Shown here: in pieces, positions 5,179-44,476 of the stretch | Layout: each line of letters opens with the position of its first letter | Numbering within the stretch: position 1 is the first letter of the stretch | Assembly: GCA_902521485.1 (NCBI GenBank) | Contig: CABYRQ010000001.1 | Span: 1-64,000 of the forward strand | Source of the DNA: an uncultured Alphaproteobacteria bacterium | Lineage (GTDB): Bacteria; Pseudomonadota; Alphaproteobacteria; HIMB59 | Length of the DNA stretch: 64,000 bases | Direction: 5' to 3' | The notes under the pieces: generated by a model | Database searches by the model: none | Told to the model about the DNA's origin: nothing | The model's input: the letters and a program-made list of their open reading frames with translations, nothing else | Position numbers and translations under genes: made by a program

Positions 5179-7542
5179 ATGCAAAAGAAGTACATTCTAG
5201 AGATGTTCCCATACCCTTCGGGTAACATACACATGGGGCATGTAAGGAATTATGTTATTGGTGATATATGCGCAAGATATCACAAACTTAAAGGTGATGA
5301 AGTCATTCACCCGATGGGTTGGGATGCATTTGGATTACCAGCTGAAAATGCAGCTATTCAATTTAATACGCACCCTCAAGATTGGACACTCCTAAATATA
5401 GAAAATATGAAAAGCCAATTAAAGAAACTCGACTTAGATTTAGATTGGGAAAAAGAATTAGCAACATGCAAAGAAGATTATTATCAATATCAACAAGAAC
5501 TATTTATAGACCTTTATGAAGCAGGTCTTGCTTATAAAAAAGATGCTTTAGTGAACTGGGACCCCGAAGATCAAACTGTACTGGCAAATGAGCAAGTTAT
5601 TGATGGTAAAGGTTGGAGAACTGGTGCAACTGTAGAGCAAAAAGTGCTTTCTCAATGGTTTTTTAAAATTACAAAATATGCTGAAGAACTTCTTAATGAT
5701 TTAGATGGGTTAGAACTTTGGCCAGAAAAAGTTAAAACAATGCAAAGAAATTGGATTGGTAAATCTATCGGTGCAGAAATAAGATTTAAAATCTCTGGAG
5801 AAGATGATCAACTGAATATATTCACAACGAGGCCGGATACTATATATGGAGCAACATTTATTGCCTTATCTGTAAACCATAGACTTGTAAGCAAGTTTTT
5901 AACAAAAGAAAAAATAAATGAGATTAAGAAATTATTTGCAGAAATTGATAATGAAAAAGAAAAAAAAGGTTATTTAATGGATATTAAATGTAAACATCCT
6001 CTTTTAGACAAAGAAATACCAGTCTACATTGCAAATTTTGTTTTAGATAATTATGGTGAGGGGGCTATATTTGGTTGTCCAGCTCACGACGAAAGAGATT
6101 ATGATTTTGCTATAAAATATAAAATACCAATTATTAAAGTTATTGAGTGTGAAGACAAAGATCTGCCTTTTACTCAAAATGGTAGAGTAATTAACTCTCC
6201 ATTGTTAAATGGTTTAGAAAAATCTGAAGCAATAAAAAAAATAATTAATTATTTTGAAGAAAAAGAAATTGGGAATAAATCAATTAATTATAAGCTAAGG
6301 GATTGGGGGGTATCTAGACAACGTTATTGGGGATGCCCAATACCCGTAATTTATTACGAAGATGGCACTTTCAGGGTTCTAGATAAAACAGAATTACCGA
6401 TATTGCTTCCTTATGATGTAAATTTAAACGGAAAAGGTAATGCATTATTAAATCATGATAGCTGGAGAAAAATTGTATGCCCAAAAACAAATAAAATTGC
6501 TTACAGAGAAACAGATACTTTTGACACATTTGTAGACTCATCTTGGTACTACATTAGATTTTTAAATAATAAGCTTGATAAGCCTTTCGACATAAAACAA
6601 GTAAATGACTATTTGCCAGTTGATAAGTACATTGGTGGTATAGAACACGCTATACTTCATCTTTTATACTCTCGTTTTTTTATGAAAGCGTTAAGAGATA
6701 TCTATAATTTAAAAGTAAATGAGCCTTTCAAGCAACTTTTCACTCAAGGTATGATAACGCATAAAACATATAGAACACAAAAAGATGAATGGATTATGCC
6801 AAGAGAAGTTTATCTAAATGAAGGAAGTCTTTTTAGGGAAAAGACAAATGAAATTGTTATAGAAGGTCCAACTGAAAAAATGTCTAAATCAAAGAAAAAC
6901 GTAATAGAACCAGACGAAATTCTGGAAAATTATGGTATCGATGCAACAAGGTTTTTCATGATATCTGACTCTCCCCCGGACAGGGAACTAGAGTGGACAG
7001 ACGAAGGAATACAAGGTTCTAAAAATTTAGTTCGAAGGATTGAAAGGTATTTTAAAGAAAATAGAACAGATATGAAACACGATACAGATAAAATGATAGA
7101 AAAATTTGTATTTAATATTGAAAAAAATATTTTGAGTTTTTCTCTGAACAAGTGTGTGGCAGATATTTATACCCTTTTTAATTATTTAGAAAAAGAGAAG
7201 ATATATTTGCATAATAGTGACATAAGTAAAAAAATACTAGTGTGTTTATACCCCATTGTCCCAAATATGGTTTTAAATTTATATAAGCAATTATTCGATT
7301 CAAAGAATATTGGTAATTGGCCAAAAATTAATAAGGAATTGTTGATAGAAAGAAGTATTAATTTACCTATACAGATACAAGGTAAATTAATTACAACAAT
7401 CAATACGAAAAAAGGTTATAAAGAAAACGAAATCTTAAAATCAATTTATAAGCTGGATAAGATTAAAAATAAAATACAAGATAGAAAGGTAACAAAAGTA
7501 ATTAATGTTCAGGATAAAATTATTAATATTATTTTTGACTAG
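5179..7542 (+). CDS. leuS: leucyl-tRNA synthetase (N-terminally short)
   Basis: [19 protein letters not shown] (HIGH), [28 protein letters not shown] editing domain, [10 protein letters not shown] (KMSKS). Confidence 0.95.
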
Positions 7543-7990
7543 TTTTTTATTTTTTTCGTGTACAAAAAATATCACAAATCAAGATAAGGTTAAATACAGT
7601 TTGGGTTATATTGGTGGAGAATACGATGGGTTGATTTTAAAAAATTTTTTAATAGATAATTTGACTTTCATGGGCCTATATAGCAATGAGTCAAATTACA
7701 AATTAATGCCAAGTATATCACATTCAACTACATTGTTTATCACAAATATAGACAACACTTCAGACAGAATGAAAATTGAGAGCGAATTGAATATTGAAGT
7801 GATTGATCAAAGACTAAATTGCTTAACACAAGAATTTAAAGAGACTAAATCTCAATTTTATATATTTGCAGATAGTGATAAATATATTAGTAACAAAATT
7901 GCAGAGAAAAAAATCAAAGAGGAAAATACTTACGCATTGGCAAAACAATTTATTAATAAATTAGAAATACCAAGCAAAATGTGCAAATAA
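7505..7990 (+). CDS. LptE-like LPS-assembly lipoprotein
   Basis: ORF 161 aa, lipobox LFFSC; position between leuS and the holA-like gene; overlaps leuS by 38 nt. Confidence 0.5.
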
Positions 7991-7994
7991 ATTA

Positions 7995-8618
7995 ATGAAT
8001 AATATTAAATGTATAGTTGATTTTGTAAGTAGTAAATCTGATACAAAACTATTGATTAATCAAGTTAGTGACACAATAGGTTTTTTTTATGTAAATCTTA
8101 TAGAAACAGAGGCAAAATCCAAATCCATAAAATTGAATTACGAAGAAGATTTTGTAAAAGAGACTGTTAATGATCTCTTTGTCAAAGAGGAAATATACTT
8201 ATATTTTACAACTAGTAAAAAAATTATAGAAAAATGTTTATACACAAATAAGAAATGTGTAATTTTTACAGACTACAAAAATTTTAAAGTATTTATAAAC
8301 AAAGTTTTAACAGTTAATGGATATAACTATCAAAAAGATATTAAATATTTCCTAAAAGATATACATTTAATCAAAGACTCTGAAATTATTGATTACTGTA
8401 CCTCATCGCCACATTTAACTTTTTCAGAGCTCTCGAAATATTTGATTAATAGCTCAAACTATATAAAAGAAAAAAAAATTAAGGAAAAAAATAATTTTAT
8501 TTTGGAAATTAGGAAAAGTCTTTTTGATTTAAAAAAATCTAACAAAAGCCCTCAGGAAATCTACAATATTTTAAAACTCGAAGTAAGATATAAAAAATTC
8601 AATTTTTTAATTTATTAA
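7995..8618 (+). CDS. divergent, shortened DNA polymerase III delta subunit-like protein (holA position)
   Basis: ORF 207 aa between the lptE-like gene and parB, the usual holA location; weak sequence resemblance only. Confidence 0.35.
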   Translation: MNNIKCIVDFVSSKSDTKLLINQVSDTIGFFYVNLIETEAKSKSIKLNYEEDFVKETVNDLFVKEEIYLYFTTSKKIIEKCLYTNKKCVIFTDYKNFKVFINKVLTVNGYNYQKDIKYFLKDIHLIKDSEIIDYCTSSPHLTFSELSKYLINSSNYIKEKKIKEKNNFILEIRKSLFDLKKSNKSPQEIYNILKLEVRYKKFNFLIY

Positions 8619-35769: not shown

Positions 35770-36284
35770 TGAATTACCGTTTTGATTTTATCGAAACACC
35801 AATAATTAAACTTTTTGCCCTAGATAGTTCAGAGGGAATTCACTTTCTTATAAAAGATGGTGATAAAAGAATTAAAAATATACTTAAATTATATAATCCA
35901 ACTAAAGGTTTAAAATTAAAAAAAGTAAACGAACAAATAAACAATTTTTTGAAAGGTAAAATTTCTATACAAAAAAATATCAAAATAAAGTTCCTCGAAG
36001 GAACTACATTACAAAAAAAAGTTTGGACAGAAATTATTAAAATTCCGTACGGTCACACGATTTCTTACACAGATCTTGCTATAAAAATAAAAAGACCAGA
36101 TACAGTAAGAGCTATAGCTTCAGCGGTTGGTAAAAATCCTGTTGGATTATTGGTCCCTTGTCACAGAGTAGTGAGAAAAAATGGAGATCTAGGTGGATAT
36201 ATGTGGGGCGAAAAATTTAAGAGAAAAATACTAGATATAGAGGGTAGAGGAACGGCTGACTCGACATATAGAGGAGGAAAGTGA
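35769..36284 (+). CDS. ogt: methylated-DNA--[protein]-cysteine S-methyltransferase
   Basis: IPYGHTISYTDLAIKI, RAIASAVGKNPVGLLVPCHRVVRKNGDLGGY. Confidence 0.95.
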   Translation: MNYRFDFIETPIIKLFALDSSEGIHFLIKDGDKRIKNILKLYNPTKGLKLKKVNEQINNFLKGKISIQKNIKIKFLEGTTLQKKVWTEIIKIPYGHTISYTDLAIKIKRPDTVRAIASAVGKNPVGLLVPCHRVVRKNGDLGGYMWGEKFKRKILDIEGRGTADSTYRGGK

Positions 36285-36299
36285 GATACCGAATCAGCC
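36254..36299 (-). ncRNA. candidate structured RNA, copy A: hairpin with anti-SD loop
   Basis: Minus strand GGCUGAUUCG / CGAGUCAGCC: 10 bp with one U-G wobble (a C-A mismatch on plus); 26-nt loop contains CACUUUCCUCCUC; GC-rich island at ogt 3' end. Confidence 0.4.
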
Positions 36300-36375
36300 C
36301 CCGCATGAATGCTAACTGAACACTAATAAATATTTTGATATAGTCAAAAGTTGTTCAAGTGTTAAATATCCAAAA

Positions 36376-39490: not shown

Positions 39491-39540
39491 ATTATTCAAT
39501 TGGTTAATAAAATAGATTAATGAAATAATGAAATTTATTG

Positions 39541-39589
39541 CCCCTTGCCACCTTCCTCCTCGACAATGTCTCAACCCAAGCGGCTAGGG
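39541..39589 (+). ncRNA. candidate structured RNA, copy B: hairpin with anti-SD loop
   Basis: CCCCUUGCC ... GGCUAGGGG stem (8 of 9 bp) enclosing CACCUUCCUCCUC; GC-rich island in AT-rich intergenic; shares the loop motif with copy A. Confidence 0.4.
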
Positions 39590-39713
39590 GACAGGTATAA
39601 TATTCGAATTTTGGTTGATATGAAACAGATTTCTTATAATTTAAAAAGCCTATCAAATAAGAAAAATATCGTTATAGATGTTATTTAAAAATTAATTAGT
39701 TATAAATTGAGCT

Positions 39714-42425: not shown

Positions 42426-43220
42426 ATGAAATTAAAAAATTTATTTTTATCGTTATTTTTATTTTTTTCCATTAGTGTTTATTCAAAAGATTTTATAGTC
42501 ATTCAATCCACTACAAGTATTGCTAATACGGGCTTGCTTGATCTTTTAGCATCAGAATTTAAAAACAAAACTGGAATAAAAGTAAGACCTATTGCAGTTG
42601 GAACCGGCAATGCTATTGCAAACGCAAAAAGGGGCGATGGAGATTTATTATTCGTTCATTCAAAAAAAGATGAATTAGAATTTATAGATGAGGGCTACGG
42701 TGTGCAAAGATATGAGGTTATGTACAATAAATTTATTTTAGTTGGTCCAAAATTTGACTCACTGAAAATATCACAAGAGGAAGATATTTTATCCGCATTA
42801 AAAAAAATATATAACTCAGAATACAAATTTATTTCAAGAGACGATAATTCTGGAACTCATAAAAAAGAACAAGAATTATGGAGTTTGGCAAATATCAAAA
42901 AATTTGATCCTGATAAATATATAAAAACCGGGACAAGCATGGCCAATACATTAAATATCGCCGCTGAAATTGATGCCTACACGATAAGTGACAAAGGCAC
43001 CTGGCTATCTTTTAAAAACAAAAATAATTTAAAAATTCTTTTTGAGGGTGGTGATAAATTACATAATCCTTATGGAATTATTGCAGTCAACCCTGAAAAA
43101 TTTCCTCATGTTGAGTATAAAAAATCTCAGAAGTTCATTGAATGGTTGATTACAGGTGATGGCAAAGATGTTATTAATAAGTTTACATATAACGGTGAAA
43201 AGTTGTTTCATACCAATTAA
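42426..43220 (+). CDS. tupA: tungstate ABC transporter substrate-binding protein TupA
   Basis: IQSTTSIANTGLLDLL, GTGNAIANAKRGDGDLLFVHSKKDE, SRDDNSGTHKKE. Confidence 0.92.
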   Translation: MKLKNLFLSLFLFFSISVYSKDFIVIQSTTSIANTGLLDLLASEFKNKTGIKVRPIAVGTGNAIANAKRGDGDLLFVHSKKDELEFIDEGYGVQRYEVMYNKFILVGPKFDSLKISQEEDILSALKKIYNSEYKFISRDDNSGTHKKEQELWSLANIKKFDPDKYIKTGTSMANTLNIAAEIDAYTISDKGTWLSFKNKNNLKILFEGGDKLHNPYGIIAVNPEKFPHVEYKKSQKFIEWLITGDGKDVINKFTYNGEKLFHTN

Positions 43221-43230
43221 TATTACCTAA

Positions 43231-43878
43231 ATGCTAAGTTTTGAAAAAATACAATCCGCAGTTTTTATTACAATTTATGTAAGTATTTTTTCAACATTAA
43301 TTGCATTTTTTTTATCTATGATTTTTGGCTATTTAATTGCTATTTATCAATTCCAATTAAAAAAACCAATTGTAATCTTCTTAAGTTCTCTTACATCTAT
43401 CCCTCCCGTATGTGCAGGGCTATTAGTCTATTTACTTATAAGCAGGTCTGGCCCCTTAGGTTGGATGGAAATTCTATATTCACCTATAGCAATGATCATT
43501 GCTCAGATCGTAATTATCTTCCCAATTATGATAACTTTAATAATTAAAAACATTGAAGAGGATTATCCAATTTATAGAGATGAATTAATGTCTTATGGAG
43601 CTTCAAAAAAAGATATAATTTTCTTACTCTTTTCAAATAAAACAAATATATACATCACTGTTCTTTTACTAGGTTTTGGCAGGGCTATAAGTGAGTATGG
43701 GGCAGCTGCAATTGTAGGAGGCTCAATTGATCATTTTACAAGAAACATGACAGCGACAATAGCTTTAGAAACTTCTAAAGGGAATGTTTCATTAGGTATA
43801 GTTTTAGGAACAATATTAATTTTCCTCACACTTTTAATATCAATATCTCTTAATTTTTTAAATAAAAATAATGATTAA
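43231..43878 (+). CDS. tupB: tungstate ABC transporter permease TupB
   Basis: TM ORF with GASKKDIIFLLF...GFGRAISEYGAAAIVGGSI. Confidence 0.9.
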   Translation: MLSFEKIQSAVFITIYVSIFSTLIAFFLSMIFGYLIAIYQFQLKKPIVIFLSSLTSIPPVCAGLLVYLLISRSGPLGWMEILYSPIAMIIAQIVIIFPIMITLIIKNIEEDYPIYRDELMSYGASKKDIIFLLFSNKTNIYITVLLLGFGRAISEYGAAAIVGGSIDHFTRNMTATIALETSKGNVSLGIVLGTILIFLTLLISISLNFLNKNND

Positions 43879-44476
43879 AGTCAATAATATCTCATATACG
43901 ATTAATGGAAAAAATATTCTTTCAAATATTAATCTAAATGTCACACGAAACAAAATTACAGTTATTACTGGAAAAAATGGTTCTGGTAAAAGCTCTCTTA
44001 TAAAAATTATAAATAAAATTATTATTCCTGATAAAGGAACAATTAACTCTGAATATTCTGAACCTATACCGATGCTTTTTCAAAAACCTATTTCCTTAAA
44101 TAAAAGCTTAGAGGATAATTTTCTGCTATTAAGCAAATTAAAGAAATCCAAAGTAAATAAGTTCTACTTTAATCTATTTAAATTAAATAAATTAAAAAAA
44201 CGTAAATTTCAAAATTTGTCAGAAGGAGAAAAACAGAAAGTATTTATTTCTAGATTTATGAGCTATGAACAAGATTTAATCATTTTAGACGAACCTAACC
44301 AGAACCTTGACCTAGAGAGTGAAAAGATTTTTTTTACATCACTGTCTAAAGTTAAAAATAAAACTGTTCTTTTATCTCTTCACAATATGAGTCTTGTAAA
44401 AAAATTTGCAGATCACGTGATAGTTTTAGACTCAGGAAAAATTGTATTTAACGATATTTCTTCAAAATTTTTTTAA
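43871..44476 (+). CDS. tupC: tungstate ABC transporter ATPase TupC
   Basis: VITGKNGSGKSSLIKI Walker A, LSEGEKQKV signature, LIILDEPNQNLD Walker B. Confidence 0.9.
   Translation: MIKVNNISYTINGKNILSNINLNVTRNKITVITGKNGSGKSSLIKIINKIIIPDKGTINSEYSEPIPMLFQKPISLNKSLEDNFLLLSKLKKSKVNKFYFNLFKLNKLKKRKFQNLSEGEKQKVFISRFMSYEQDLIILDEPNQNLDLESEKIFFTSLSKVKNKTVLLSLHNMSLVKKFADHVIVLDSGKIVFNDISSKFF

Follow-up and report, generated by a model that had tools for sequence, protein, structure and literature searches.

The window, the whole 64,000-nucleotide stretch that was analysed, belongs to a genome of 1.19 Mb (32 contigs, 78.5% complete) and carries two short conserved elements, designated here A and B. The ORFs flanking A were named by eye as dnaJ, an ogt-like gene and a transporter gene, and A overlaps the 3' end of ogt. 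The stop codon of the ogt-like ORF lies inside A in the window's group and ahead of A in some distant relatives. A peptide encoded on the plus strand of A was considered and rejected, as its apparent frame, inspected by eye, does not stay open: L062 differs in length by one base and L059 has a stop. B is located between a TPR gene and the genes for a gamma-lyase and a cysteine synthase. Further along the plus strand, at 42426-44476, three consecutive ORFs were read by eye as an ABC importer consisting of a binding protein, a permease and an ATPase, with tungstate or molybdate as a possible substrate. ARAGORN found no tRNA or tmRNA near A or B in the window and in the corresponding loci of 12 relatives. 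The features assigned to the two elements are as follows.

36249..36318, minus strand: A, a putative conserved RNA with a short hairpin followed by a long hairpin with an anti-Shine-Dalgarno (anti-SD) loop; the ends are approximate
36271..36283, minus strand: CACUUUCCUCCUC in the loop of A, of the anti-SD type, from the sequence and predicted fold
36320..36347, minus strand: candidate promoter of A, TTGACT-N16-TAGTGT, read by eye and absent from the consensus scan list
39539..39592, minus strand: B, a putative conserved hairpin RNA (GUCCCCUAGCCGCUUGGGUUGAGACAUUGUCGAGGAGGAAGGUGGCAAGGGGCA), from pair counts, conservation and a covariance model
39549..39561, minus strand: GAGGAGGAAGGUG segment of B, complementary to the A loop, from the sequence and a duplex scan
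39597..39624, minus strand: candidate promoter of B, TTCATA-N16-TATTAT with a weak -35 box, from a pattern scan (9 of 12)

On the plus strand, CCCCTTGCC (39541-39549) and GGCTAGGGG (39582-39590) form a stem with 8 of 9 pairs, as described in a sequence-only reading made previously, and the enclosed loop is CACCTTCCTCCTCGACAATGTC, as quoted there. The start given for the hairpin, 39541, was correct, and its end lies one base further than the 39589 given, at 39590. A loop related to SD and anti-SD sequences was confirmed as well. The plus-strand fold (-15.1 kcal/mol, z -1.45) is unremarkable on its own, and that of the minus strand reaches -23.1 kcal/mol (z -2.53). B stands above chance because of its conservation and not because of the plus-strand fold alone. 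Among 25 relatives, only 2 of 54 positions of B vary, as compared with 42 of 48 in the left flank, toward the TPR gene; on the promoter-bearing side of B, 8 of 58 and 8 of 63 positions vary. The whole hairpin is conserved, the loop segments as much as the stem, and in the alignment of regions upstream of the lyase gene B is nearly unchanged while the flank on the TPR side has turned over. For the core of A, 6 of 58 positions vary in 25 relatives, as compared with 55 of 89 in the adjoining ogt coding sequence.

The strand on which each RNA would be made was judged from the pairing in relatives. When the same B stem was scored on either strand in six aligned variants, standard pairs filled 73 of 78 cells on the minus strand versus 57 of 78 on the plus strand, counts that are not independent events because the sequences are related, and that come from a stem model derived from the minus strand, in which the hand-aligned row of the most diverged variant (G015) favours the stem by construction. 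At two positions of the stem, five or six of the six sequences have a G-U pair when read on the minus strand but no standard pair on the plus strand, and substitutions in L030, G030 and G015 likewise give G-U pairs on the minus strand only. One pair switches from C-G to U-A in G015, and in two cells (L030, G015) pairing is lost whichever strand is read. The stem of A shows standard pairs in 214 of 219 cells on the minus strand versus 160 of 219 on the plus strand. As judged by these patterns, with which the folding energies of B are consistent, the B RNA is most likely encoded by the minus strand, and so, most likely, is the A RNA. That B is a structured RNA produced from this strand is considered highly probable.

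Models for A and B were built from the alignments and run on 149 genomes of the order, and each identified its element in 42 genomes, all within one genus. The B covariance model gave a single match in each of the 42 positive genomes, and the A model one match in nearly all, with one extra weak match in G032. Whenever a single contig was found to carry both A and B, they share a strand and are separated by 2.7-4.3 kb. A is conserved more deeply than B: two genomes in which B was not detected, G024 and G013, have A as well. A scan of 386 genomes of the class for A and B returned only weak scattered matches of 24-26 bits; the one for A, in G258, is inside coding sequence, and the out-of-genus matches were therefore taken as chance, L242 and L243 being left out of the closer look. 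In the 1.19-Mb genome, the 13-mer core CACYTTCCTCCTC has only two matches with at most one mismatch, at the A and B sites. A separate scan of genome contigs from public records for an exact 19-mer also picked up many unrelated coding matches. The element had been proposed to be a repeated or palindromic one, but A and B each occur once per genome and their stems differ, and a dispersed repeat was rejected on these grounds.

For B, which precedes the lyase start by 124 nt in the window and in close relatives, a role as a plus-strand leader or riboswitch of the gamma-lyase and cysteine synthase genes had been suggested. Of 60 genomes, 59 gave matches to the gamma-lyase, some of these being distant paralogues. 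However, the plus strand pairs less well, and a distance of ~0.86 kb separates B from the lyase gene in G030, G009 and G026, where B keeps its place after the TPR gene. In G030 (locus L209), the ORF at 7465-8217 intervenes between B and the lyase gene, and the TPR gene is on the other side of B; B is therefore not an element of the lyase gene. The element was thus found neither on the coding strand of that gene nor directly upstream of it across relatives, and we regard this suggestion as most improbable. In agreement with the statement that no known SAM riboswitch class was recognised, an Rfam 15 scan identified no family at its gathering threshold in the window, and a relaxed search (E up to 10) around A and B gave only chance-level matches.

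On the minus strand, the start of an lldD-like gene for an alpha-hydroxy-acid dehydrogenase directly follows B, 7-15 nt after it, in G015 (L206), G009 (L210), G060 (L211) and G026 (L213); these genes were named by eye, that of G060 from the gene start only. The lldD gene was located beside B in G009, G026 and G015, in the last of these as two pieces with an internal stop, and in the lldD-bearing relatives it lies between the TPR side and B. B might therefore have originated on the minus strand as a leader that controls lldD translation: with AAGGGG, the 3' arm of its stem, 7-15 nt before the lldD start, the hairpin would hide the ribosome binding site. After the loss of lldD, B might persist in a role of its own unrelated to A. 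However, B is nearly invariant in G030, G031 and the window's clade, where lldD was not found, and in G024 and G013 lldD is present while B was not detected. Furthermore, the DnaJ tree needs four changes of lldD presence, at least two of them forced by well-supported branches, and the retention of B after losses of lldD argues for a function of its own. An origin as an lldD leader, with no relation to A, is considered unlikely, if deserving of attention. Upstream of lldD in G013 (L208, ~8166-8186, minus strand), TCCTCAT...ATGAGGA forms a small perfect palindrome with AGG directly after it; it is perhaps an unrelated hairpin at the same place.

B is palindromic and begins 49 nt past the TPR stop codon, as would suit a palindrome acting at the DNA level or a site at which transcription of the TPR gene terminates. 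Neither would be in keeping with the equal conservation of loop segments and stem, with the G-U asymmetry, which points to RNA, or with the intervening position of lldD in the lldD-bearing relatives. No U-tract terminator was recognised for A or B, which is contrary to a terminator at B and counts against stand-alone RNAs as well. A DNA-level palindrome or TPR terminator is very unlikely. Upstream of A, TTGAC[AT] and TANNNT occur at constant spacing with a variable spacer sequence, the variants being read by eye, and a TANTAT motif a few bases ahead of the B stem, likewise recognised by eye, is kept in most lineages. The pattern scan that returned the candidate B promoter yields, as a whole, no more promoter-like sites than shuffled sequences.

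B had been described as a copy of the A motif. The CACTTTCCTCCTCTATATGTC sequence of A sits at 36263-36283 on the minus strand, and A is therefore an inverted, not a direct, counterpart of B, 3.3 kb off. It is A on the minus strand that resembles B on the plus strand, and if both RNAs come from the minus strand, as is most likely, the 21-nt likeness amounts to complementarity of the predicted transcripts, which are then not alike. The loop of A carries CUUUCCUCCUC, and 5'-CACUUUCCUCCUC-3' of A can form 13 contiguous pairs, plus further pairs, with 5'-GAGGAGGAAGGUG-3' of B. When both strands of the 374-kb contig were scanned for duplexes, B was the best trans partner of the A loop after A's own antisense and outranked all 27,672 background tiles, and A ranked second for the B segment when B's own antisense was excluded. 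Thus, the complementarity is above the genomic background, as looked for in an sRNA and its sponge, but it is weaker in G030, G031 and G015, where 15-30 of 27,672 background tiles equal the own A-B pair. In a matrix of pairings across lineages, the own pair tops its column in two cases, G015 and (by a margin of just 0.5 kcal/mol) G030, and is not the best for the window type, G026 and G031. As co-evolution of A and B is weak, the connection between them is carried by conservation of both sequences and not by covariation between them. Since the B segment is also SD-like, part of its match to A could reflect SD likeness. The A-B link is suggestive.

In the predicted fold of B, the strongly SD-like GAGGAGGAAGGUG is mostly unpaired, and its GGAGG segment might bind the 3' end of 16S rRNA, making B a ribosome decoy. 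However, conservation extends beyond the SD-like core to the entire hairpin, and a decoy would account neither for the additional pairing potential with A nor for the fixed linkage; this role appears improbable. Target prediction for A is too weak to use: among the 200 best tiles there are 17 contacts with ribosome binding sites, as compared with ~7.5 expected, and the gene calls are crude.

In Caulobacter crescentus, the UUUCCUCCCU core of the sRNAs SisA-D (alphaR8/MmgR family) is blocked by the G/A-rich loop of the sponge CrfA, and the SisA/CrfA pairing is assisted by Hfq (PMC12559287). The arrangement of A and B would be similar, with an anti-SD core in one RNA (UUUCCUCCCU in SisA, UUUCCUCCUC in A) and a G/A-rich match in a second. 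Membership in the family is not implied, as A lacks the alphaR8 features tested. The first 8 of 10 positions of the A core are identical to the alphaR8 10-mer, so the full 10-mer is not present. While the alphaR8 core is single-stranded, that of A is inside a hairpin loop; alphaR8 RNAs have a Rho-independent terminator, whereas no terminator-like site follows A on the minus strand; and alphaR8 is usually beside the gene for N-formylglutamate amidohydrolase (FGase), whereas A is beside ogt and dnaJ. Hfq helps alphaR8 pairing, whereas for A and B no Hfq (PF17209) was found in 11 genomes of the order, including G000 and G030, by a search that recovered the positive controls, Caulobacter among them; the genome holding the window is 78.5% complete.

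On its minus strand, A also shares with the ar15/AbcR sRNAs (RF02345) a stem GCUGA...UCAGC enclosing a UUUCCUCC loop, but it scores only 11.7 bits (E 3.4) against the RF02345 gathering score of 40. The rhizobial sRNAs SmelA075 and SmelA099 have CCUCCUCCC loops in three or four such hairpins (PMC3927594). A resembles them in showing an anti-SD sequence in a hairpin loop, and differs in having one such hairpin and in that the complementary motif is carried by B. The structured RNA candidates of Candidatus Pelagibacter ubique (PMC2704228) are comparable as conserved intergenic RNAs of small-genome marine alphaproteobacteria; the CCUCC motif is absent from the main text of that paper, to which the comparison is limited.

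In view of their conservation, structure, strand preference, single copy number, fixed linkage and complementarity, A and B are best read as a genus-restricted small-RNA pair, for which we infer transcription, binding to each other in the cell and regulatory roles. As a free-standing hairpin RNA of ~52-60 nt, B would be encoded by the minus strand, and its transcription would run away from the gamma-lyase gene. Its G/A-rich segment would pair with the anti-SD loop of A, which presumably represses mRNAs by covering their SD sequences, and B would act as an antagonist (sponge) of A. This reading as a whole, with B both a stand-alone minus-strand RNA and an antagonist of A, is put forward tentatively, as not quite an even chance, and the antagonism taken by itself is conceivable but in some doubt. 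The lldD-leader origin is its main rival, and the two could hold together.

Ocean bacteria with small genomes are thought to have little regulation. It is rather doubtful, if possible, that a genus of streamlined marine alphaproteobacteria in which no Hfq was found keeps in place a two-RNA cassette made up of an anti-SD RNA and a dedicated antagonist, with stable hairpins doing the pairing. If true, RNA-level control would have been retained in small-genome ocean bacteria, under constraint above that of its surroundings, and Hfq-free pairing of an sRNA with its sponge would become testable with two short RNAs.
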